Origin: Lachnospiraceae bacterium
Lineage (GTDB): Bacteria > Bacillota > Clostridia > Lachnospirales > Lachnospiraceae
Length of the DNA stretch: 57,447 bases
Direction of reading: 5' to 3'
Assembly (NCBI GenBank): GCA_017428265.1
Contig: JAFRRD010000044.1
Coordinates: forward strand, 1 to 57,447
Below, one piece after another: positions 33,928 to 44,028 of the stretch. The position numbers and the translations under genes are program-made. The number at the start of each line of letters is the position of its first letter. The first letter of the stretch is position 1. The notes under the pieces are model-generated. The model saw only the letters and a program-made list of their open reading frames with translations, had not been told where the DNA came from and made no database searches.

Positions 33928-34710
33928 TTATACTTCGGGCCCGGGGCCACTGCGATAGGCCCGGATGGAAACGGTCTCATAGGGTTCGACGCTTGACGTG
34001 ACCCAGGTGTTGCCGCCGATCACGGCGTCGTGGCCGATTTTCGTGAGGCCGCCGAGCACGGTCGCGCCGGAGTAGATGACCACCCGGTCGCCCACGTCGG
34101 GGTGGCGCTTGATGCCCTTGACGGGCGTGCCGTCCGGGTTCAGTTCGAAGCTCTTCGCCCCGAGGGTCACGTGCTGGTAAAGCTTCACGTGCTCGCCGAT
34201 GGTCGTGGTCTCGCCGATGACGACGCCGGTGCCGTGGTCGATGAAGAAGTACGGGCCGATGGCGGCGCCGGGGTGGATGTCGATGCCGGTCGAGCTGTGC
34301 TCAAGTTCGGTCATCATGCGCGGCACTACGGGAACCTTCAGCAGGTAGAGTTCATGCGCAAGGCGGTAGGTCGAGATCGCCGGGAAGGCCGGATAGGACA
34401 GGATCACCTCGTCGGTGCTGACGGCAGCGGGGTCGCCCTCATAGGCTGCCCGGATATCCGTCTCGATCAGCGCGGCCACGCCGGGCAACTTTTCCTCGAG
34501 AATCGTGAACGCTTCTTCTGCGTGTTTATCGTTCAGGAAATATTTCATCGCTTTCAGGAGTGAGTCCTTGAAAAGGGAAAACTCCAGCCTCTTCTTTTCT
34601 TCCTCCTCGAAATGCTCCTCCGCACCGAAATGCCGCGGGTACAGCGCCGCAAAGAAATGCGCGAGCGCCTCCCTGACCGTATCCTTTAATCCGAGATAGC
34701 TTTTTTCCAT
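33928..34710 (-). CDS. cysE: Serine O-acetyltransferase
   Basis: The 260-residue enzyme transfers acetyl from acetyl-CoA to serine, the first step of cysteine synthesis in the cytosol. The N-terminal helical half contains DIRAAYEGDPAA and AISTYRLAHEL. The C-terminal left-handed helix carries the hexapeptide repeats and catalytic block STGIDIHPGAAIGPYFFIDH, then GVVIGETTTIGEHVKLYQHV and KRHPDVGDRVVIYSGATVLG. Length fits the EpsC-type subgroup with a longer N-terminus. CGGAGC precedes the ATG. It has its own promoter overlapping an upstream terminator hairpin. Confidence 0.95.
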   Translation of the reverse strand: MEKSYLGLKDTVREALAHFFAALYPRHFGAEEHFEEEEKKRLEFSLFKDSLLKAMKYFLNDKHAEEAFTILEEKLPGVAALIETDIRAAYEGDPAAVSTDEVILSYPAFPAISTYRLAHELYLLKVPVVPRMMTELEHSSTGIDIHPGAAIGPYFFIDHGTGVVIGETTTIGEHVKLYQHVTLGAKSFELNPDGTPVKGIKRHPDVGDRVVIYSGATVLGGLTKIGHDAVIGGNTWVTSSVEPYETVSIRAYRSGPGPEV

Positions 34711-34724
34711 CGGTAATGCTCCGT

Positions 34725-34760
34725 AAAAAAGACTGTCCTTCGATCACGAAAGACAGTCTT
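34725..34760 (-). terminator. Terminator hairpin in the cysE leader
   Basis: AAGACTGTC and GACAGTCTT enclose an inner TTCG/CGAA stem, and TTTTTT follows on the minus strand. It would end transcription from the alpha-galactosidase gene. Because the cysE promoter lies just before it, the cysE transcript would also begin within this hairpin and meet the T-run. Confidence 0.8.
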
Positions 34761-34761
34761 T

Positions 34762-34790
34762 ATCATAATATAGCTGCGTCAGCTTTTCAA
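34762..34790 (-). promoter_or_regulatory. cysE: Sigma-A promoter of cysE
   Basis: On the minus strand TTGAAA (34785-34790) and TATGAT (34762-34767) have a 17-base spacer, about 50 bases before the cysE start. Confidence 0.75.
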
Positions 34791-34824
34791 CTGCCAAATC
34801 TTTTGAACTGAGTCTTCGCGGACC

Positions 34825-36393
34825 TTACACCCTCACGTCTATCGGAAGTTTGATCTCTTTCTCCTCGCCGTCTTTTTCGTAGACGAGCCGCGTCCGCAGC
34901 CCTTTGTGCACGAGCCTGCCGTGCGGAAGCTTCGTCATCTCGCGGTACTCACGGTAGCGCTGCTTCTGCTCGCCCGTGTAGCTGCCCGGGTCGTCCGAGG
35001 TCAGGAACACGCTGCCGCAGAGGGCATCCACCTTCGCCAGCAGGTCCTTCTGCTTTTCGTTCAGCTTCAGGTTCTCCGTCCGCAGGAATAAAACGTCCGG
35101 GTCGCAGCCGAAAGCGTAGCCGTCCAGCGGCATGCGGTTCATCGTATCCGCCATGGAGCGGCGCGTTGAAATGCGCTCCGGGTGCGCGATGTGCATGTAC
35201 AGCTTGTCGTCCCAGTCAAGGCTCACGTCACAGCCGATGCGGCAGTAGTCAACGAGGCCGAAGGCCGGCATCAGCGGCACGCCGCAGCCGAGGATCAGGG
35301 CCTTGCCGCACCATTTGCGCAGCATCTCCATCGCCCGGCGCATGCGGCCCGCGCGGGTCTCCTTTTCATTTCCGAAACAGGCCGCCCCGTAGAGGAAGTC
35401 CAGTTTCAGCAGGTCGAAGCCCCAGTCCTCGACAGCCCGGCGGATGCATTTCTCCACATAGGCCATCGCCTCTTCGTTATCGATGTCGAGGGCATAGAAG
35501 CCGCTCCAGTTGCAGCCGCATTTCCAGGGCTGGCCGTCCTTCTGGTAGAACCAGTCCGGATGCTCCTGATACACGGAAGACTTCTCTTCCGCGACGAAAG
35601 GCGCCATCCAGAGGCCGGCCCTAAAGCCCGCGCCGTGGATGATCCCGGCCATGCGCTTCATGCCGCCCGGGAACTTCTCCTCCGATGCCTCCAGCCAGTC
35701 GCCCACGAAAGGCTCCCAGCCGTCGTCGACCTGGAACATATCACCCGTTTCAAACACGTCGCGGCAGCCGTCCAGCGTCTCCAGGATGCAGTCTTCGCTG
35801 ATGTCCTGATAACGGTGGTACCAGCTGCTGTAGCCGTAGAGTTTCGGGATCTCCCGCTTTTCCATGCCCATGGCTTTGAACCAGGCCGCGAAGACTTCCT
35901 CGCGGCTTCCCTCGGCCGTAAAGAGGTCGAAGGCGCGGAAATCGCCGCTGACTTTCAGCCCCTCGGCGTCGCGCGTGATCGTCAGCACGCGCCGCAGCGA
36001 ATCGTAGGAAAAGACCGTATAGCCGTTCGTCTCATCCAGCGAGGCAAAGAGCCGGTAAGTCTCCCCCTTCCGGAACCAGCACCAGGAAAAGCCGTGGAAG
36101 CGCCCGCGCATGACGGAATAGCCCGTGATCTGCGCGTCTCCGTAGCGGTCAAGCGAGAAGTTGTTGACCAGCTGCTGCGGCAGGTGTCCCGTGCCGTACA
36201 TCCGCTGCGGGGGGAGCCATTCGGGACTGTAAGTCCAGCTCTGGTAGCCGTTGAAATACATGCCTTCCGGAGGGTCGATCTTCAGCGTCGCCCTCACCTC
36301 CCGCACGGTCCCGTCAAAGGGTCCGTGGATATGCACCTCGCCGATCCACTCGGCAGTTCCTTTAAGGCCGTTTACGGTCCACTCAAGCTTCAC
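34825..36393 (-). CDS. Alpha-galactosidase-like glycoside hydrolase (GH36 type)
   Basis: The 522-residue protein has a beta-sandwich N-terminus (YFNGYQSWTYSPEWLPPQRM) and a TIM-barrel catalytic part: FQVDDGWEPFVGDWLEA, RAGLWMAPFVAEEKS, LLKLDFLYGAACFG with the likely nucleophile Asp, and YCRIGCDVSLDWD with the likely acid Asp. These match GH36/clan D alpha-galactosidases. No signal peptide, so it acts in the cytosol on sugars brought in by the neighbouring symporter. The start is GTG at 36393 behind AAAGGAG, overlapping the symporter end by 11 bases. It is shorter than the usual 700 residues, lacking part of the N-terminal domain. Confidence 0.9.
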   Translation of the reverse strand: MKLEWTVNGLKGTAEWIGEVHIHGPFDGTVREVRATLKIDPPEGMYFNGYQSWTYSPEWLPPQRMYGTGHLPQQLVNNFSLDRYGDAQITGYSVMRGRFHGFSWCWFRKGETYRLFASLDETNGYTVFSYDSLRRVLTITRDAEGLKVSGDFRAFDLFTAEGSREEVFAAWFKAMGMEKREIPKLYGYSSWYHRYQDISEDCILETLDGCRDVFETGDMFQVDDGWEPFVGDWLEASEEKFPGGMKRMAGIIHGAGFRAGLWMAPFVAEEKSSVYQEHPDWFYQKDGQPWKCGCNWSGFYALDIDNEEAMAYVEKCIRRAVEDWGFDLLKLDFLYGAACFGNEKETRAGRMRRAMEMLRKWCGKALILGCGVPLMPAFGLVDYCRIGCDVSLDWDDKLYMHIAHPERISTRRSMADTMNRMPLDGYAFGCDPDVLFLRTENLKLNEKQKDLLAKVDALCGSVFLTSDDPGSYTGEQKQRYREYREMTKLPHGRLVHKGLRTRLVYEKDGEEKEIKLPIDVRV

Positions 36394-37765
36394 CGCGTCT
36401 CTCCTTTAATACTTCGCCGATCTCCGCCATCTTCGCGTCGGTCAGCTTGAACTTCTTGCCGAAGAAGAAAAATACTGCGATCAGGGTCAGGATCGGGATG
36501 ACCGTCATCAGGAGCCGCAGGCCGGTGATGGTGCTTGCGCTCTGCTGGATGATCTCGCCCGTATCCTCCGTATTGCCGACAAGGCCGATCAGGTCGATGC
36601 CGATACCGGTCAGGAACACCGCAACGCCCGAGGCCAGTTTGACCACGAAGGTCTGCATGGAGAAAATGACGCTCTCCTCGCGGCGGCCGTTCTGCAGCTC
36701 GCCGTAGTCGACGCTGCCGGACAGGAAGACCGTCGTCAGAACGCTCAGGATACCGTTCGCCATGAAGACCATGATGCCCGGGACGAACAGGGCATAAAGG
36801 GTGTGTTCGAAGCCCAGGAAGACGAGGCCGAGCAGGACGCCGTAGCCGGCAAGCGCGAGGCCGACCGCAATGCGGAAGATCTTCTCGTTCGCGATCTTTC
36901 TCGCACGCAGCAGCGGGTAGACGACCATCATACCGACGATCTGGAAGGCGCCGCCAACCGTCGAGAAGAGGGTGTAATCGCCCTTCCAGCCGGCGCCGCC
37001 AAAGTCATATTTGAAGAAGTAAATGATAAAGTTGGAGGTCAGGTACAGGGCCATGTTGACCATGACGATGGTGAGGACCACGGTCAGGGCCTGGTCGTTG
37101 TGGAAGAGCGCGCGGAACATTTCCTTCACGCTGACGTTCTCCATCTTCGTCTCGCGTTCTTTCACGTTCAGACAGCAGATCACTTCGGTGATGATGAAGA
37201 TGACCGCGACGATCAGGGCCACGTAGCGGAAGCCCGTGCGTTCGCTGTCGCCGCCGAGGATGCCGACCATCAGCATCGTGCCCATGGCCATGATGGCGGC
37301 GCCGATGCCGGCGCAGGTACGGCCGACGACGGAGAGGTTCTCGCGCTCAGCCTGCGTATCGGTCAGGGCGGGGATCATGCTCCAGTAAGGGATGTCCATC
37401 ATGGTGTAGGTGACGCCCCAGAGGATGTAGACGACGCTGAAAAAGACCATCATCTTGCTCTCCGGCATGACCGGCGCCGCATACAGGGCGTAGAGCACGA
37501 GGGCGTTCAGCACGGTCCCGGAGAAGAGCCAGGGCCTGAATTTGCCCCATTTGGTCTTGGTCTTTGCGACCAGCACGCCCATGAAGGGGTCGTTCAGTGC
37601 GTCGAATACCCGCGCCACCATCAGGATGGTGCCGACGAAAGCGGCGCTCAGTCCGATGATATCCTGGTAATAATACAGAACATAGTTCGCGGAAAGCGCG
37701 TAGACCATGTCCTTGCCGACCGCACCGATACCGTAGGCGATCTTCTTGCCTGTTGTCAGTTTCAT
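36383..37765 (-). CDS. GPH-family (MelB-like) sugar:cation symporter
   Basis: A 460-residue protein with 12 predicted helices. It begins MKLTTGKKIAYGIGAVGKDM and has YYQDIIGLSAAFVGTILMVA, VFDALNDPFMGVLVAKTKTK and WGKFRPWLF, all typical of the glycoside-pentoside-hexuronide family. It should import alpha-galactosides such as melibiose with Na+ or H+, given the overlapping alpha-galactosidase gene. The ATG at 37765 follows CGGGAGG; the longer frame upstream runs through the promoter and is not real. Confidence 0.95.
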   Translation of the reverse strand: MKLTTGKKIAYGIGAVGKDMVYALSANYVLYYYQDIIGLSAAFVGTILMVARVFDALNDPFMGVLVAKTKTKWGKFRPWLFSGTVLNALVLYALYAAPVMPESKMMVFFSVVYILWGVTYTMMDIPYWSMIPALTDTQAERENLSVVGRTCAGIGAAIMAMGTMLMVGILGGDSERTGFRYVALIVAVIFIITEVICCLNVKERETKMENVSVKEMFRALFHNDQALTVVLTIVMVNMALYLTSNFIIYFFKYDFGGAGWKGDYTLFSTVGGAFQIVGMMVVYPLLRARKIANEKIFRIAVGLALAGYGVLLGLVFLGFEHTLYALFVPGIMVFMANGILSVLTTVFLSGSVDYGELQNGRREESVIFSMQTFVVKLASGVAVFLTGIGIDLIGLVGNTEDTGEIIQQSASTITGLRLLMTVIPILTLIAVFFFFGKKFKLTDAKMAEIGEVLKERRGEA

Positions 37766-37811
37766 AAATAAATCCTCCCGGCCCCGCGGACGGGGCATAA
37801 GTTTCTGAAAT

Positions 37812-37840
37812 ATTATAGCCGACACGGGATGAAAATGCAA
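37812..37840 (-). promoter_or_regulatory. Sigma-A promoter of the symporter-galactosidase operon
   Basis: On the minus strand TTGCAT (37835-37840) and a perfect TATAAT (37812-37817) have a 17-base spacer, about 50 bases before the symporter start. It begins directly after the serpin terminator. Confidence 0.85.
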
Positions 37841-37842
37841 TG

Positions 37843-37871
37843 AAAAAAGCCCCTTTCGCGGAGAAAGAGGC
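37843..37871 (-). terminator. Terminator of the sigma-serpin operon
   Basis: GCCTCTTTC and GAAAGGGGC, with a CGCG-type loop, are followed by TTTTTT on the minus strand, about 70 bases after the serpin stop. One bulged base is present. Confidence 0.8.
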
Positions 37872-37941
37872 TTGTTCTGTCGTAGTATTACGCTCCGGCC
37901 GGCGGCGCCGGCAGACACCGGCCCGTCAAGCCGGTTGACTC

Positions 37942-39402
37942 TTATTCGATGTTCTGCACGACGCCGGCAAAGAGGATCGAATTATCCTGCCCGGTCACGA
38001 GGAAAAGGAAGGGGCGGTCGACGGTGAAGCTATGACCGGGTTCGATATAAGCCGCGAGCATTTCCAGATACGTATATGCCGCGCCGACGATCCCGTCTTC
38101 ATCGATCTCTACCATGGCCGCATGCTGTGCCTTGCCGAGATAAAGGCCGGCGGCCTCTTCTTTTTTTGCCATGAGCGGCGTAAAATCAGCCAGCGTTTGG
38201 TCCGTCACGTCTGTGATGCCGAGCGCCGGCAGAATCTTCATAAGATCCGTCTGTCCTTCCACCTTAAACTTCGGGAGCGACAGAATCACTTTTCCGCGGG
38301 GTTCATACGGTCCCTGCTCATTTCGTTTCAGCATGTTCAGCAGTTCCGGATCCGCGGCAAGATCGGCAGCTTCCGTACCTTCTTTCGGCAGGCAAATATA
38401 GACAAAACCGCTGTCCGTGAGCGGAAGACCGACCGACTCAAAGCACTCACCTTCATACCAGTCCGCCGTTTTCTCCCCGTGCATCATCTCGACTTCGGTA
38501 TCACCCTTCGCTCCGTGAAAGACCTCCTGTCTGTTATTCGTTTTCCAGAACGGATCTTCCCACATTGCCTTGAAGAGAATTGTCGAGACCAGCGCCAGCA
38601 CGGCGTTTCTGTCCATCTTCATTTCTTTCGTCTGCTCGGAAAGCAGACCGCCGGTATTTTCATCGGTCCATTTCTGCAGAGCCTTATTCATTGCGTCGGA
38701 ACCGGGAGTTCCGATAAAGGAATCGGCATAGTAACGCTCAGCCAGGGTCTGCAGCGTCGATTTGTTGTAATTGTAAGCGCTGCTCAGCCAGTATGAATCG
38801 GCGAGCAGACTCTGCAGCTGGAAGGAGTCGGCATAATTGCTTTTCCAGAGAAGAGCAGCTTTCTCCCGCAGCGTTTCAACATCCGGCACGCACAGCACAT
38901 CCAGGATCTGCTGCCTGGTATTTCCGTCTGTAACCTCTGCGAGCATGGCCAGGGCCATGTAAATGTTCAGCGGAGAGCAGACGGCATTGTCCTCCTGCCC
39001 CGCCAGCATCACCTTCATCAGGCGTTCGTAGTAGGGCCGCATGCCCTCCTGCAGTGCATAGGCGGGATCGGTGAGTTTGGCCTGCGCGTTCCACCAGGCA
39101 GTATGTTTATTGTATGAATGGAGGTCTTCTTCCGAAGACAGTTTGATTGAAGAGACCGGCTTTACCGCCTGCACGGTTTCGACGCCCGGATAGTTCACTT
39201 TCGCCGTGACCTTTCGGAAAAGCGGGATCCCGACCGTCAGCACCAGGGCGATCACCGCCGCGCCGCCGAGCGCCCAAAGCCACATCTGCCTTCTCTTTCG
39301 CCCGGCAGCCGTTCCTTTGCCGAGTCCCTCTTCCACGATATGTTTCACCGCCCGGTCGATCATTTCCGGGGCAGGCATGACGATCTTCTCATCACCGCTC
39401 AT
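37942..39402 (-). CDS. Membrane-anchored serpin, candidate anti-sigma factor
   Basis: The 486-residue protein has a short cytosolic N-terminus (1-39, APEMIDRAVKHIVEEGLG), one membrane helix at 41-62, and an extracellular serpin domain from about residue 95. The serpin signature FTVDRPFLFLV lies near the C-terminus. The reactive loop begins near G437 (GIVGAAYTYLEMLAAYIEPG) with small residues in the hinge, compatible with an inhibitory serpin; scissile bond is roughly Ala-Ala or Ala-Tyr. Secreted clostridial serpins inhibit host or gut proteases. Here the gene overlaps the ECF sigma gene by 11 bases, the place of an anti-sigma factor, so the cytosolic tail may hold the sigma factor. That role is inference. 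GGGAGG precedes the ATG. Confidence 0.93.
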   Translation of the reverse strand: MSGDEKIVMPAPEMIDRAVKHIVEEGLGKGTAAGRKRRQMWLWALGGAAVIALVLTVGIPLFRKVTAKVNYPGVETVQAVKPVSSIKLSSEEDLHSYNKHTAWWNAQAKLTDPAYALQEGMRPYYERLMKVMLAGQEDNAVCSPLNIYMALAMLAEVTDGNTRQQILDVLCVPDVETLREKAALLWKSNYADSFQLQSLLADSYWLSSAYNYNKSTLQTLAERYYADSFIGTPGSDAMNKALQKWTDENTGGLLSEQTKEMKMDRNAVLALVSTILFKAMWEDPFWKTNNRQEVFHGAKGDTEVEMMHGEKTADWYEGECFESVGLPLTDSGFVYICLPKEGTEAADLAADPELLNMLKRNEQGPYEPRGKVILSLPKFKVEGQTDLMKILPALGITDVTDQTLADFTPLMAKKEEAAGLYLGKAQHAAMVEIDEDGIVGAAYTYLEMLAAYIEPGHSFTVDRPFLFLVTGQDNSILFAGVVQNIE

Positions 39403-39928
39403 TGCTGAATTCCTCCCTGATCCGTTTCTGCAGGCGGTAATACTTCGTCTTGACGCTCGCTTCGGGCATTCCCGTCATTTCCGCGATCCCGCGGAACGTC
39501 AGGCCCTCAAAGATGTGCAGGCGGAAGACCGTCTGCGTCTCCTCATCAAAACCAGAGACGTAAGCTTCGATCCGCCGAAGAAGCGCTGCGTCATCGAGCC
39601 TTGCAAGCTCGTCAGGTCCCTCCTGCACGGTGTCATCTTCGAGAGGCAGAAGCGTCACTTGCGCAGCGCGGCGCCGATCGATCACCTTGTGCGTCGCGAT
39701 GGCATAGAGCCAGGTCCGGAAAGCGCTCTTTTTGCTGTCGTAGCAGCCGATCGACTGCAGCACCGCGATGAAGATCTCCTGCGTAAGGTCCATCGCATCC
39801 TCCCGGTTCCCGGTCTGACGGTAAACGTAGACATAGATCTCCTCATAATATCCGCGCACCAGAAGATCGGCCGCCTTTCGCGACCCGTATTTCTGTACGC
39901 GTCTGATGAGTCCGGATTCTCCGTCCAT
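39392..39928 (-). CDS. ECF-type RNA polymerase sigma factor
   Basis: The 178-residue protein has sigma region 2 (YYEEIYVYVYRQTGNREDAM, DLTQEIFIAVLQSIGCYD, FRTWLYAIATHKVIDRRR) and region 4 (LHIFEGLTFRGIAEMTGMPE, ASVKTKYYRLQKRIREEF), with no region 3, as in extracytoplasmic-function sigma factors. It would direct polymerase to its own regulon. A matching TGAAAC-N16-CGAATA promoter lies just upstream, implying autoregulation. AAGGAGAG precedes the ATG. It overlaps the serpin gene by 11 bases. Confidence 0.96.
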   Translation of the reverse strand: MDGESGLIRRVQKYGSRKAADLLVRGYYEEIYVYVYRQTGNREDAMDLTQEIFIAVLQSIGCYDSKKSAFRTWLYAIATHKVIDRRRAAQVTLLPLEDDTVQEGPDELARLDDAALLRRIEAYVSGFDEETQTVFRLHIFEGLTFRGIAEMTGMPEASVKTKYYRLQKRIREEFSNER

Positions 39929-39964
39929 GTCCTCTCTCCTTCGAAGTATTCCCTTCTGCTGATA

Positions 39965-39992
39965 TATTCGGCCCTGCAGGGAAAAAGTTTCA
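39965..39992 (-). promoter_or_regulatory. ECF (SigW-like) promoter of the sigma-serpin operon
   Basis: On the minus strand TGAAAC (39987-39992) and CGAATA (39965-39970) are separated by 16 bases, close to the SigW-type consensus TGAAAC-N16-CGTA. It lies about 37 bases before the sigma start and indicates control by the sigma factor itself. Confidence 0.8.
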
Positions 39993-40078
39993 GCGATCCC
40001 CGTGCTTTTTTCTCAATTCAATTCGGAAAAATCATAACATAGCGCTTCCGAAGGCGCAATAATCACCTGGGAAAGCAT

Positions 40079-40107
40079 TTGCGAAGCGCCGCCGGATGAA
40101 GTATGAT
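40079..40107 (+). promoter_or_regulatory. Sigma-A promoter of the MFS transporter gene
   Basis: TTGCGA (40079-40084) and TATGAT (40102-40107) have a 17-base spacer, about 42 bases before the transporter start, divergent from the sigma-serpin operon. Confidence 0.7.
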
Positions 40108-40149
40108 GGAAGCAGCAAAATCGCTGGCAAGCGGAAAGGAGGAAAGCCC

Positions 40150-41352
40150 ATGCGCAAGTTTACGGAAGTCTTCCGGGCGGAATCCGGCTGGCGGATGTTC
40201 TTTGTCTCGGTCATGACCTTCGGCCTCGGCTACGGCCTCTACAAGGGGATCATCGACAATTATCTCGCCGAGATCGTGTCCATGACATCGTTCGACAAAG
40301 GCGTTTCCGAGTTCTTCCGGGAGTTGCCCGGTCTCCTGCTCGTCTTTATTCTGGCCGTTTTCTTCATGCTTTCCGCAGAAACGATCTACAAGCTGGGCGC
40401 CCTCTTCATGCTCGGCGGCATGGTCATGCAGGCCGTCGTGCCGGCGACGCGCGTGATGGTGATCCTCGCCATCTTTGTCTTCTCGCTGGGCGACCATATG
40501 CAGCTCGGCATGCGTTCGACTCTCTCTCTGCAGTACGCAAAGGAGGGACGCGGCGGCGCGGCACTGGGTCTCCAGACCTCGGTCTACCGGATCGGGACGC
40601 TCGCGGGGTATCTTGCCATCGCCGCGGTCTTTTATTTCCTCGAAGGCGCCGAAAGCCCCTACCGGACGGTCTTTGCCGTCAGCGCAGCCATCATCGCCCT
40701 CGGGGCTCTCGCTTCCCTGCGCATGAAAGGAAGCAGCCGTCCCGACGAGACGAAACGGCGCTTCTATTTCCGCAAAAAATATTCGAAATATTACATGCTT
40801 GAGGTCTTCTACGGGGCCCGCAAGCAGATCTTCTTCACCTTCGGGCCGTACGTTCTGGTCCTCTTTTACGGCGCCGACGCCATGGTCATCAGCCTGCTTT
40901 TTGCAGTTTCGTCGGTGTGCATGTTCCTGGCCGCGCCCGCCGTCGGCCGCATCATCGACCGCTTCGGCTACAAGATCGTGATGATCACGGACACGCTGGT
41001 CCTCGTGATCGTCTGCTTCTTCTACGGCTTCGCGCACCACATCTTCCCGCGGAACGTCGCCTTCATCGTCTGCTGCGTCAACTACGTGCTGGATTCGGTC
41101 ATTTCGCTGGCCTCCATGGCCTCAAACGTCTACGTGCAGGATCTGTCGGACAGTCCCGACGAAGTGCGTGCGACGATCTCCACCGGCGTCTCCGTCAACC
41201 ACCTGATCACGATCCTGATCGCGCTTTTCGGCGGCTGGATCTGGCAGGTGCTCGGCATCGAGACGCTGTTCATCCTCTCGGCAATCCTCGGCCTGTGCAA
41301 CAGCGCCTACGCCGCAACGATCAAGACCGGGAAGGCGGCGGCAAAATTATAA
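40150..41352 (+). CDS. MFS transporter
   Basis: A 400-residue membrane protein with about 12 helices (FFVSVMTFGLGYGLYKGIID, ELPGLLLVFILAVFFMLSAE, HLITILIALFGGWIWQVLGI). The loop after helix 2 is short, and a Lys/Arg-rich loop (ETKRRFYFRKKYSKYY) separates the halves. This is the general shape of major facilitator carriers; substrate is not recognisable. The start is the ATG at 40150 behind AAAGGAGG. It is a single gene on the plus strand among minus-strand neighbours. Confidence 0.88.
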   Translation: MRKFTEVFRAESGWRMFFVSVMTFGLGYGLYKGIIDNYLAEIVSMTSFDKGVSEFFRELPGLLLVFILAVFFMLSAETIYKLGALFMLGGMVMQAVVPATRVMVILAIFVFSLGDHMQLGMRSTLSLQYAKEGRGGAALGLQTSVYRIGTLAGYLAIAAVFYFLEGAESPYRTVFAVSAAIIALGALASLRMKGSSRPDETKRRFYFRKKYSKYYMLEVFYGARKQIFFTFGPYVLVLFYGADAMVISLLFAVSSVCMFLAAPAVGRIIDRFGYKIVMITDTLVLVIVCFFYGFAHHIFPRNVAFIVCCVNYVLDSVISLASMASNVYVQDLSDSPDEVRATISTGVSVNHLITILIALFGGWIWQVLGIETLFILSAILGLCNSAYAATIKTGKAAAKL

Positions 41353-41361
41353 CCATCTTAT

Positions 41362-41658
41362 TTATCCGTTTACGGCTTTCCGGGGAATGAATTCAACTTT
41401 CAGCGTCATTCCCATCCCGTTCGCAAGGCGCTGCAGCGTGCGGATCGACGGGTTGGCATTGCCGTTTTCCAGCTTGCTGATGTCTCCCTGGGCAATCCCG
41501 GTGCGCTCGGCAAGCTCTTTTTGTGTCAGCCCGGACCGGCGCCGTGCCTCAATGATCGCCCGGATCACGGCGCGTTCCGGCTGCAGAGCCTCATACTCTC
41601 TTCGGAATTCGGGATCGCGAAGCTGCTCTTCCAAAAAATCATTATACTTATTGCTCAT
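41362..41658 (-). CDS. HTH (XRE) antitoxin of a HigBA/RelE-type pair
   Basis: A 98-residue protein with a central XRE helix-turn-helix (SGLTQKELAERTGIAQGDIS, KLENGNANPSIRTLQRLANG). The acidic N-terminus (FLEEQLRDPEFRREYEALQP) probably wraps the toxin. It would neutralise the upstream toxin and repress their common promoter at the palindrome 42049-42068. The start overlaps the toxin stop by 4 bases. Toxin-first order is typical of HigBA. Confidence 0.93.
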   Translation of the reverse strand: MSNKYNDFLEEQLRDPEFRREYEALQPERAVIRAIIEARRRSGLTQKELAERTGIAQGDISKLENGNANPSIRTLQRLANGMGMTLKVEFIPRKAVNG

Positions 41659-42014
41659 TCGGCGCTCTCCCTTCTTCTCAGATGATCCGCCCTGTATCTC
41701 TTTGCTTTTTCGATCTCTCCCGGCGGTGTTTTCTGAGTCTTTTTGATAGATCCGTTTGTTAAAATGATTCGCCGATCCACATAGAAGAAATACAGAACTC
41801 TCGAAATGTCTGTTCCGACTTTTGCCCTGAGTTCAAATATCCCTTCCTCCAGATGTTTGGAATACGGTTCGCGGAGCTCATAGCCATAATCCTGCAGGAT
41901 CGACATACTACTCATCATCTTGGCCCGCATTTTTGTATTGAGGCTGAGCAGGAATTCTTTCGCGGGTTGTTCTCCGTTTTCTTTTGTGTAGAATTCTACT
42001 TCAAATTTTGGCAA
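41655..42014 (-). CDS. RelE/HigB-type toxin
   Basis: A 119-residue phage-derived Gp49/HigB-like toxin: KFEVEFYTKENGEQPAKEFL, SKHLEEGIFELRAKVGTDIS and RVLYFFYVDRRIILTNGSIK with the strand carrying conserved Arg and Tyr residues. Known members cut mRNA in the ribosome. The C-terminus is basic (RYRADHLRRRES). It is the first gene of the pair, with the palindromic operator inside its promoter. Confidence 0.93.
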   Translation of the reverse strand: MPKFEVEFYTKENGEQPAKEFLLSLNTKMRAKMMSSMSILQDYGYELREPYSKHLEEGIFELRAKVGTDISRVLYFFYVDRRIILTNGSIKKTQKTPPGEIEKAKRYRADHLRRRESAE

Positions 42015-42045
42015 TTCAACCTCCTGCCTGACACCTCCCGTCTTG

Positions 42046-42074
42046 ATATTATAGGATAAATCCTATAACGTCAA
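42046..42074 (-). promoter_or_regulatory. Promoter of the toxin-antitoxin pair
   Basis: On the minus strand TTGACG (42069-42074) and TAATAT (42046-42051) have a 17-base spacer; TATAAT two bases off gives a 15-base spacer. The operator palindrome fills the spacer. Confidence 0.6.
42049..42068. promoter_or_regulatory. Palindromic operator of the toxin-antitoxin pair
   Basis: TTATAGGA-TAAA-TCCTATAA has perfect 8-bp arms and lies between the -35 and -10 elements, where a bound antitoxin would block polymerase. Confidence 0.8.
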
Positions 42075-42082
42075 GCATAATT

Positions 42083-42109
42083 ACAGCACAGCAAAAACTG
42101 CTGTGCTGT
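42083..42109 (-). terminator. Hairpin after the DUF1294 gene
   Basis: ACAGCACAGC and GCTGTGCTGT form a perfect 10-bp stem with a 7-base loop. On the minus strand only AATTATG follows, so termination may be weak. It separates the DUF1294 gene from the toxin promoter. Confidence 0.45.
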
Positions 42110-42122
42110 TGATCAGTCAGCA

Positions 42123-42419
42123 TTAGAACGGCAAAGTGATGATGCCTTTGTTTACAAGAAGATAAACGATCACGATCTGCGCGATCAGGATCGCGGGGAT
42201 CCCGATCCGGAAATACCAGTGTTTCGTTTTGTGACGGAAAAGGTACATCCCGAGGATGGCGCCGATGCTCCCTCCCAGGATGGCGGACAGGAACAGTGTC
42301 TTCTCGGGGATCCTCCACTGTCCTTTTTTCGCGCGCTTTTTATCGATGCCGAAAATGGCAAAGGCAACGAGATTGATGATGACAAGCCAGGCAATGACTG
42401 CGATCCATACGGGCGGCAT
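42123..42419 (-). CDS. DUF1294 membrane protein
   Basis: A 98-residue protein with three helices (VWIAVIAWLVIINLVAFAIF, LFLSAILGGSIGAILGMYLF, GIPAILIAQIVIVYLLVNKG). The conserved DUF1294 block GIDKKRAKKGQWRIPEKTLF and the FRHKTKHWYF block lie between them. No function is known to me. The ATG at 42419 follows AAAAAAGGAG. It lies 16 bases behind the MFS-like gene, likely the same operon. Confidence 0.92.
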   Translation of the reverse strand: MPPVWIAVIAWLVIINLVAFAIFGIDKKRAKKGQWRIPEKTLFLSAILGGSIGAILGMYLFRHKTKHWYFRIGIPAILIAQIVIVYLLVNKGIITLPF

Positions 42420-42435
42420 ATAAATTCTCCTTTTT

Positions 42436-43476
42436 TCAGCGGGCAGGCGCCCCATCCGTCAGCGTATACCGCAGAAGGACGAAGCTCAGGATGGAAAAGA
42501 CCGTGATCAGCACGATATTGACAATCGGACTGAACTGTACGAAAAAGGCCGGCAGCAGGCCGATGAAGAGCCCTGCCGTCGTGATCCCGAAAGCCAGTCC
42601 CGGATTCGTTTTCAGGATGCTGAGGCACATAGCAAAGGTGATACTCATCGTCATTGAGAAGAAGAACACGCCGATGCAGGACACAACCATGACCTTGTCA
42701 CCGAAAAGCAGGAAGGGGATCGCGGCAAGCGTCCCGATGAACGCGGTCTTTCTGACACCGACCGTATCGGCCATGAGGCCGCCCAGCGCCTTCCCCGCGC
42801 CCATGATGAAAAAGAGGAAAAAGCTCTGCCACAGCTGCTTGTTCCACGAGATCGGGATCGCGTAGCCGATGTAGCTTCTGACGGAGGTCACGATGAAAGC
42901 GATCAGCAGAATCAGGCCGGCCGAAACCTTCGGGCTGACAACGTGGAACTCGGGGTAGCTTTCCTTCCGGACGGAGACCTTCGCGGACAGGCAAAGCAGC
43001 TCCGATACGGCGAGCGGGATGAGCAGCCACCAGGGGGAGACGCCTGCCACACCCATCGTCTGGCCGATCACCACACCGTAAGAACCGCCGGCAACGAACA
43101 GCGCCGAGGGGAAGATCTTTCCTTCGCTCTCCGCGACCGTCGCGATCGCTCCGCACTCGTGCAGGATCGCATTTCCGACGGCCAGAACGATGTAGCCGGC
43201 AATGTGCAGCGCATCACCCGGGGCCAGGATCATGAAGGCGCTCACACCCATCAGCGCATTGCCGATGCTCTCGTAGGGGGTCTTCCTGTGTTTGATGATG
43301 AAGTCCCCGATGAGCCCCTGCGGCAGGAAGGCGAAGAAGTCGTAGGACAGCGCAATGGCGCCTGCCATCGCTGTCGGAAAATGGATCCGCAGCAGATAAA
43401 AGCAGACGATCTCCACGCAGGCATGGACAAAGAAATACTTCGTCCCCGTCAGATTTCCCTTATTGCGTGTCATCAT
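42436..43476 (-). CDS. MFS-like membrane protein, 346 aa
   Basis: A protein with about 10-11 predicted helices (YFFVHACVEIVCFYLLRIHF, ALSYDFFAFLPQGLIGDFII, WLLIPLAVSELLCLSAKVSV, FGITTAGLFIGLLPAFFVQF). The loop after helix 2 (IGDFIIKHRKT) and the second-half GKALGGLMADTVGVRKTAFI resemble the MFS motif A. It is slightly short for MFS and the substrate is unknown. The exact start is unclear: ATG codons at 43488, 43476 and 43473 compete, all overlapping the previous gene end. It shares a run with small membrane proteins. Confidence 0.72.
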   Translation of the reverse strand: MMTRNKGNLTGTKYFFVHACVEIVCFYLLRIHFPTAMAGAIALSYDFFAFLPQGLIGDFIIKHRKTPYESIGNALMGVSAFMILAPGDALHIAGYIVLAVGNAILHECGAIATVAESEGKIFPSALFVAGGSYGVVIGQTMGVAGVSPWWLLIPLAVSELLCLSAKVSVRKESYPEFHVVSPKVSAGLILLIAFIVTSVRSYIGYAIPISWNKQLWQSFFLFFIMGAGKALGGLMADTVGVRKTAFIGTLAAIPFLLFGDKVMVVSCIGVFFFSMTMSITFAMCLSILKTNPGLAFGITTAGLFIGLLPAFFVQFSPIVNIVLITVFSILSFVLLRYTLTDGAPAR

Positions 43477-43747
43477 CCCCCGGCTCATCCTTCTCCTCAT
43501 CGGCTGGCTGATCACCTTCGGGCAGCGGTTCGCCCTCAATGACCGGTTCGGCTTTGAGCAGCATTTCATCCACGGCAGGTGCAGCCACCTCCGGCTGTCC
43601 TTTTTTCTTCTTCAGTTCGCGGCGGATCGCCCTGACACCGAGCCAGATGAGAAGGGCCGCAAGACCTATGGCCAGTACGGCCGTGATCGGGTTCATAAAT
43701 ACAAGATCAAAAAAGCCGAAACTCACATCCAAAAGCAGAAAACTCAT
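43460..43747 (-). CDS. Small single-helix membrane protein, paralogue 1
   Basis: A 95-residue protein with an N-terminal LLLDVSFGFFDLVF segment, one membrane helix (ITAVLAIGLAALLIWLGVRA), the basic block RRELKKKKGQP and a long acidic tail ending EKDEPGDDDTQ. It is a tandem paralogue of the gene at 43744-44028: both begin with a LLLLD-like start, share IRRELKKKKGQP and end in an acidic tail. Function is unknown. CGGAGG precedes the ATG. Confidence 0.8.
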   Translation of the reverse strand: MSFLLLDVSFGFFDLVFMNPITAVLAIGLAALLIWLGVRAIRRELKKKKGQPEVAAPAVDEMLLKAEPVIEGEPLPEGDQPADEEKDEPGDDDTQ

Positions 43748-44028
43748 GATTTTTCCTCCGTAATATCTGCATGATCAGCTTCCGGGGCAGGCTGCATTTC
43801 TTCGACCGGCTGCTTTTCTTCAGTCGGCTGCATTTCTTCGACCGGCTTTTGTTCCCCGGCGGGCTGTCCTTTTTTCTTTTTCAGTTCGCGGCGGATCAGC
43901 CTGATGCCGAAAAACAGCAAAAGCCCGGCGACCGCAATGAACGCGATCACAACGAGCGGGTTGCGGCTTGCCTCCTCGACGATATCTTCCGGCCCGATAC
44001 TGATATCCAGCAGCAGTAAACGTACCAT
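43744..44028 (-). CDS. Small single-helix membrane protein, paralogue 2
   Basis: A 94-residue protein with DISIGPEDIVEEASRNP, one helix (LVVIAFIAVAGLLLFFGIRL), the same RRELKKKKGQP block and an acidic tail with an EEMQP repeat (PVEEMQPTEEKQPVEEMQP). It overlaps the next paralogue by 4 bases, so they are translated together. The tail would be cytosolic. Function unknown; it may be a scaffold for a membrane complex with its neighbours. Confidence 0.82.
   Translation of the reverse strand: MVRLLLLDISIGPEDIVEEASRNPLVVIAFIAVAGLLLFFGIRLIRRELKKKKGQPAGEQKPVEEMQPTEEKQPVEEMQPAPEADHADITEEKS

Follow-up and report, generated by a model that had tools for sequence, protein, structure and literature searches.

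Why should the gene of an ECF sigma factor run into that of a membrane-anchored serpin, and could the serpin protein be the sigma factor's own anti-sigma factor? The window (the whole stretch of DNA analysed, 57,447 nucleotides) corresponds to positions 1–57,447 of contig JAFRRD010000044.1 in the Lachnospiraceae bacterium assembly GCA_017428265.1; the features of the operon are collected in Table 1, and L-numbers (e.g. L010) label the individual loci that were compared. The first gene encodes an ECF sigma factor by the usual definition (regions 2 and 4 only, in about 160–200 residues), with both Pfam matches above the cut-off in a protein of 178 residues. According to the preliminary description, the gene overlapping it encodes a protein that crosses the membrane once, with a short tail inside and a serpin outside, and this arrangement, including the overlap of 11 bases, is confirmed. 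The predicted protein has the anatomy of a membrane anti-sigma factor: its gene adjoins the ECF gene, and a short cytosolic N-terminus is followed by a membrane helix (assigned by eye) and an outer domain, which has the serpin fold along its whole length. The structure model places a helix at residues 50–57 within the membrane-helix stretch and one helix (12–26) in the tail, both at low confidence.

Table 1. Predicted features of the sigma–serpin operon, in window coordinates
Feature	Positions	Strand	Basis or remark
ECF-type promoter box TGAAAC-N16-CGAATA	39965..39992	minus	Upstream of the sigma gene
ECF sigma factor, 178 aa	39392..39928	minus	Sigma70_r2 E 5.7e-18, Sigma70_r4_2 E 4e-8 (Pfam); TIGR02937 sigma70-ECF E 5.8e-26 (NCBIfam)
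Putative serpin-fused anti-sigma protein, 486 aa	37942..39402	minus	Start overlaps the sigma stop by 11 bp
Predicted cytosolic tail, residues 1–40, basic, putative anti-sigma module of type B	39283..39402	minus	Tail comparisons
Single membrane helix, about residues 41–62	39217..39282	minus	By eye from the sequence; hydrophobic
Outer serpin domain, residues 129–484	37951..39018	minus	Pfam Serpin
Reactive-centre loop, residues 437–458	38029..38094	minus	Conserved hinge 437–444 (P15–P8), variable bait from 445; column entropies in two alignments

The 486-residue protein matches Serpin alone in Pfam at E values up to 0.001 and nothing in NCBIfam; at the same Pfam threshold it has no match to an anti-sigma family, and its tail is matched by no Pfam family. 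The serpin gene is followed at its 3′ side by genes for a predicted sugar symporter and a melibiase-like protein, and a divergent transporter gene lies on the other side of the operon. Among the flanking ORFs scanned with Pfam (33928–43747), two of which lack any match, none matches an anti-sigma family; a separate anti-sigma gene nearby was what the preliminary description had named as a reason to abandon its reading.

The same reading depended on the pair being conserved in other genomes, and here the recurrence is clear. The source genome has 16 matches to sigma-70 region 2 and 8 to serpins, and four of the serpins lie directly 3′ of an ECF gene. The pairing fractions that follow describe the loci examined, a subset of all serpin matches: 30 of 48 distinct serpin ORFs follow an ECF gene in the genus set, with paired ORFs in 13 of 16 genomes; 43 of 83 distinct serpin ORFs do so in named genomes, counted without duplicates at the best 80 of the 218 loci that matched there; and 9 of 29 were counted as paired in a family sample of 150 genomes, including one doubtful case (L074) whose ECF gene is about 740 bp away. 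The best 80 of the 218 named-genome loci include Lachnospiraceae, Oscillospiraceae, Ruminococcus, Butyricicoccus and Acetatifactor, and the closest named relative among them, from the Lachnospiraceae metagenome-assembled genome RUG13475, is 90% identical. In a class-level scan, 13 of 391 genomes, the source genome included, matched at E 1e-60 or better, and four other families include five serpins (L226, L231, L234, L235, L238) that also have an ECF gene next to them. In many genomes the two genes overlap or abut. With the pair conserved and no anti-sigma family matched in the flanking ORFs scanned, two of the three findings that the preliminary description had named as refuting its reading did not come about. 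In paired serpins a short tail comes first and a membrane helix follows. A few cases tell against the reading: L030, L120 and the second gene of L150 are unpaired serpins that possess the helix but neither the tail nor an ECF gene, and L225 is a serpin with a type-A tail and no detectable ECF gene alongside. Serpin genes also stand in tandem, two or three together and with no ECF gene beside them (L001/L002, L046, L047, L022, L023, L109), and those of the genus that were placed in the serpin tree branch apart from the paired serpins.

At least four types of tail, sorted by eye, are found with serpins. The commonest, type A, has the profile consensus MKsedLmdAiteiDddlveeA, and a profile built from serpin-fused tails also marks the N-termini of three ECF partners of the source genome that carry no serpin (L171, E 2.8e-9; L170, 9.3e-7; L162, 6.8e-5). 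When the profile was built from the 27 genus pairs alone, it was found, across the family and named sets, in 29 of 52 paired serpins and in none of the 60 unpaired ones (L049 and L079 left out as duplicates, the latter being the same locus as L010), a contrast with a Fisher p of 6e-13, uncorrected for kinship. The tail in the window is of another kind, type B. Relatives of its sigma factor, 40–57% identical, have partners that appear by eye to be multi-spanning and that carry the same kind of N-terminal tail; the tail of the closest of these type-B partners, L176, reads EEIPMPSRDEINRSVNMILDQGL, as against EKIPMPAPEEIDRAVEHIVEEGL in L010. A type-B profile made from five non-serpin tails recovers L010 (E 1.8e-4) and L011 (0.0022), but matches the window's own tail only weakly (0.33–0.40), which tells against the reading. 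Since several tail types carry a serpin, fusion of the serpin domain seems to have involved several different anti-sigma tails. Further combinations of sigma and tail with serpin outer domains were seen by eye in L091, L093, L134, L150 and L064 (e.g. MNRYKKANxGIHAPEELK in L134).

The tail, moreover, follows the sigma factor and not the serpin to which it is fused. Across 75 pairs (without L049, L079, L051, L063, L140 and L144, which are duplicates or have doubtful starts), the rank correlation of pairwise distances is 0.718 between sigma and tail, 0.350 between sigma and serpin, and 0.267 between tail and serpin, where the physical closeness of the tail and sigma genes also raises the first of these values. 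The partial correlation of sigma and tail given the serpin is 0.691, a value reached in none of 499 permutations (highest 0.225), and that of tail and serpin given the sigma is 0.025. In 44 pairs the nearest neighbours by sigma and by serpin differ, and in 32 of these the tail is nearer to the sigma neighbour, in 9 to the serpin neighbour. The window itself is a case in point: in the serpin-domain tree it forms a group (99/100) with L012, L004 and L026, loci with type-A sigmas and tails, and in the sigma tree its group sits on a branch of length 3.06. This tracking over 75 pairs gives comparative support for an N-terminus specific for its cognate sigma factor, and taken together the tail comparisons strongly support an anti-sigma role for the tail, as a module that goes with its cognate sigma. 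The proposal that the serpin protein occupies the anti-sigma position thus comes out well supported by comparison: the pair is recurrent, no anti-sigma family was matched in the flanking ORFs scanned, its tail is common to non-serpin ECF partners, and the tail tracks the sigma. On these grounds we regard an anti-sigma function of the serpin protein as highly probable.

Whether the outer domain has a history of its own was examined at L010 and L011, the same locus in two genomes, compared in 90-bp steps. Identity is 95–100% in the upstream flank, 90–99% in the sigma gene and 96–98% in the tail and helix, falls to 74% in the one step that crosses the boundary, and is 50–76% within the serpin domain; the last step, crossing the gene end, is back at 81%, and the downstream flank at 88–97%. 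Synonymous distance is 0.15 for the sigma gene and 0.85 for the whole serpin gene, which lies at 1501–2958 in both loci and is of equal length. Because flanks, sigma, tail and helix are near-identical and the serpin domain is not, the outer domain changes alone. The simplest reading of this pattern is exchange by recombination, the alternative being that the outer domain diversifies fast. Comparison of the window with L010 gives a different picture, with unrelated flanks (0–48%), 68% in the promoter step, and 76–99% in the sigma, tail and serpin steps except the last, which crosses the gene end. The operon is kept between unrelated flanks, which indicates that it moves as a unit, and dN/dS values of 0.14–0.33 in the sigma and serpin genes indicate that both are under purifying selection.

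How do other accounts of the pair fare against these data? That the two genes are neighbours by chance might be entertained since both kinds of gene are multicopy in the source genome, yet the recurrence of overlapping or abutting pairs in many genomes, the distribution of the tails, and the persistence of the operon between unrelated flanks already make it very unlikely, and we give it next to no credence. A more substantial alternative is that the serpin is a mere membrane-anchored inhibitor, its gene a target of the neighbouring sigma factor and its tail simply an export start. Unpaired relatives of the same serpin subfamily mostly start with a lipoprotein-type signal (62 of 78, as against 17 of 82 paired ones, by a crude lipobox pattern that also catches membrane helices), so that the fold could plausibly serve for inhibition alone. 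Against this, the tail goes with a neighbouring ECF gene (29 of 52 against 0 of 60), recurs on ECF partners without a serpin, and tracks the sigma rather than its own serpin; we consider this account improbable. Less easily set aside, although still the weaker candidate and in our view unlikely, is the notion that L010 and L011 differ through fast divergence of the outer domain and not through exchange, which would make the modular story weaker than it appears. The change is gradual in parts (50–76% from step to step) and the lengths are equal, as divergence would have it; against this stand the sharp drop and recovery at the two ends of the serpin domain (96–98% to 50%, and 81% to 88–97%) and the disparity in synonymous distance between sigma and serpin genes. 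Under exchange and divergence alike, these alignments indicate change in the outer half and constancy in the inner one.

The outer serpin domain is likely to be the signal input, and the question becomes what it senses. The register of the reactive loop was set by alignment against antitrypsin-type serpins, and we take the hinge of the window serpin to be P15–P8. In two alignments the column entropy is 1.07 and 0.68 bits for the hinge, 1.74 and 1.64 for the core, and 2.66 and 2.13 for the bait, and a conserved hinge with a variable bait is a pattern consistent with that of inhibitory serpins. Hinges of inhibitory serpins have small residues at P12–P9, and Tyr or Phe at P9 is unusual. The window serpin has Gly at P15 and Gly-Ala-Ala at P12–P10 followed by Tyr at P9, a position taken by Tyr or Phe in these serpins. 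For the inhibitory loop that was thought plausible from the sequence, the conserved hinge and the variable bait speak in favour and the aromatic P9 against. This residue, with the other departures in the hinge, leaves room for a different sensor, namely an anti-sigma factor that uses the serpin fold as a scaffold and, with no trapping of proteases, senses another cue such as a ligand, a peptide or the envelope state. Corticosteroid- and thyroxine-binding globulins, carrier serpins that are non-inhibitory, are among the structural matches of the model, though the fold is common to all serpins. A hinge more conserved than the core and a bait more variable is nonetheless what is expected of a working trap, and the lipoprotein-type relatives have the same hinge; we therefore hold a sensor of this non-trapping kind to be rather doubtful. 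That capture of a protease is the signal seems to us, from the conservation pattern of the loop, somewhat the better bet.

Any mechanism also has to explain how sigma would be set free. The preliminary description supposed that protease attack on the outer serpin could do this; the conserved hinge, the variable bait and the independently changing outer domain are consistent with the idea, but an extra step is needed, since the body of the protein stays on its anchor when the loop is cut near residue 451. We therefore place the release at a second, juxtamembrane cut, followed by a site-2 protease. In the resting state the tail would hold sigma at the membrane. An extracellular protease would take the reactive loop as bait, and loop insertion and the trapped protease would alter the outer domain so as to expose the juxtamembrane stretch, which signal peptidase or another protease could then cut (site 1). 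Next, an M50 site-2 protease would cut the membrane helix; the source genome has one M50 site-2 protease match. The freed sigma would transcribe its own operon from TGAAAC-N16/17-CGAATA, giving more traps and perhaps acting on other targets. Every such protein would then serve as a sensor and also, once only, as an inhibitor, and the differences in bait loop among the several paralogous pairs of a genome would make them responsive to different proteases. Two-step proteolysis, which is drawn from analogy with RsiV, we rate as an even call. The operon as a whole, understood as a sigma/anti-sigma switch with the serpin as its sensor, triggered by a protease and destroyed stepwise like RsiV, is moderately probable.

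The promoter bears on the last step of this scheme. The exact box TGAAAC–CGAATA (spacer 15–17) has two sites in the source genome, one of them that of this operon, and the same box with N17 precedes the operon in L010 and L011. The box in the window is probably read by the operon's own sigma factor, and its retention before the operon in these two loci supports the self-activation that had been proposed, although conservation falls short of showing it. A relaxed version of the box has 10 matches in the genome, as against 2 in a reversed control: two belong to the window, one at the operon and one within the serpin gene; one more is a coding site; four of the other seven are inside ORFs of at least 120 aa; and three are outside ORFs of that size and precede a cold-shock-like gene, an ATPase-subunit-like gene and the gene of a Gly/Ser-rich protein (named by eye). 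In three relatives, the exact box has 10 sites (control 4), of which two are the operon's own and seven are inside ORFs of at least 120 aa, besides one in L220. As these searches (exact and relaxed box in the source genome, exact box in three relatives) found no conserved regulon beyond the operon, we claim autoregulation alone.

Among described systems, SigV–RsiV of Bacillus subtilis and Clostridioides difficile comes closest in its working: the partner of an ECF sigma factor is an anti-sigma factor that spans the membrane once and contacts an extracellular enzyme directly with its outer domain, and binding of lysozyme lets signal peptidase make the site-1 cut, after which RasP finishes at site 2 (PMC4183432; PMC6066255). 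Unlike in RsiV, the outer domain here is a serpin and not a lysozyme-binding domain, the enzyme sensed would be a protease, and it would be held by suicide trapping; neither the RsiV outer domain nor DUF4179 is matched in the serpin protein (Serpin only in Pfam at E up to 0.001, nothing in NCBIfam). It may thus work like RsiV without being RsiV. In the presence of several paralogous pairs per genome, each with an outer sensor of its own, the system resembles SigI–RsgI of cellulolytic Clostridia (PMC12203970; PMC12484212), where nine RsgI factors of C. thermocellum sense different substrates (PMC12203970). It differs from them in that the sigma is an ECF factor and not SigI, the tail is matched by no Pfam family, and the sensor is a serpin rather than a carbohydrate-binding domain; searches of Pfam and NCBIfam gave no match to an RsgI-type N-terminal domain. 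With class I anti-sigma domain (ASDI) proteins the serpin protein shares a cytosolic N-terminus before the membrane helix and a gene beside an ECF gene, but the N-terminal domain of ASDI has four helices and often Hx3Cx2C (PMC7406223), whereas the tail here is about 40 residues long, shows no His-Cys motif by eye and has its one low-confidence modelled helix.

Bacterial serpins, for their part, are described in the passages cited here as inhibitors. Siropins inhibit human neutrophil elastase and proteinase 3 (PMC5127057), and PinA-type serpins inhibit subtilisin-like proteases (PMC12484212); both have the serpin domain in common with this protein and are not presented as sigma partners in those passages, nor are the cellulosome-located clostridial serpin inhibitors presented as parts of anti-sigma factors (PMC12484212). 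In Bifidobacterium breve, likewise a gut bacterium, serpin production is induced by proteases, papain in particular, through a separate two-component system, whereas here the serpin itself would be the sensor (PMC8012564). A literature search aimed at sigma–serpin pairs and the bacterial-serpin context, with subscription papers, preprints and supplements outside its scope, found no description of an ECF sigma–serpin anti-sigma pair, so within open papers the earlier remark that no described example was known stands. The closest placing would be among membrane anti-sigma factors, as one whose sensor domain we did not find described, working most like RsiV and having the modular multiplicity of RsgI.

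Proteases are a main chemical feature of the rumen, the gut and the inflamed mucosa, and to our knowledge it is poorly known how gut commensals sense them. With an inside end that looks built to hold sigma and a trap outside, the cell may feel and answer attacking proteases through the trap itself. Generalized to a class of receptors with a suicide protease trap as the sensor, the proposal is that gut Clostridia hold sets of ECF/serpin anti-sigma pairs, each with its own bait loop and with outer domains exchanged or diversified apart from the inside half, by which particular host, diet or rival proteases are detected by their attack and answered with more traps; the balance of evidence tips slightly towards it. 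If true, a serpin serving as receptor would give one answer to the question of protease sensing by gut commensals. It would also add a new type of input domain to those of ECF switches, supply naturally interchangeable sensors that go with different sigma factors, and account for what some of the numerous unexplained serpins in gut Clostridia do.

Several smaller observations concern the promoters and the surroundings of these operons. A GTTAN-N14-19-CGWN box stands in the 130 bp upstream of 20 of the 27 type-A operons (mean 2.28 and maximum 7 in shuffles that preserved base composition only), and 8 have a near-perfect TGAA palindrome (e.g. TGAAAACGTTTTCA) 34–35 bp after the start of this box (mean 0.14, maximum 2 in the same kind of shuffles). 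The palindrome lies upstream of the sigma gene in L016, L017, L007, L020, L021, L018, L033 and L038, with weaker versions in several others. We take it to resemble a LacI/CcpA-type operator; it is placed like an operator over the start site and, if of that type, would bring in control by carbohydrates as well. In Bifidobacterium longum, glucose inhibits the production of serpin (PMC10059941). A regulon of the type-A sigma was sought with TGTTAC-N15-17-CGAC, but this had 2 matches against 8 in the control and showed none. The promoter spacer also holds an inverted repeat by eye, CCCTGCAGGG in the window and a different one, TCCTTAAAGGA, in L010/L011, and these repeats are perhaps an operator. 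Elsewhere on the minus strand of the window, a gene for a Gp49-like (DUF891) protein adjoins an HTH_3 regulator gene at 41362–42014, arranged in the order of a HigB/HigA-type toxin–antitoxin pair. The ORFs at 43460–43747 (without a Pfam match) and 43744–44028, also on the minus strand, encode adjacent small membrane proteins that have RRELKKKKGQP in common, as if duplicated.
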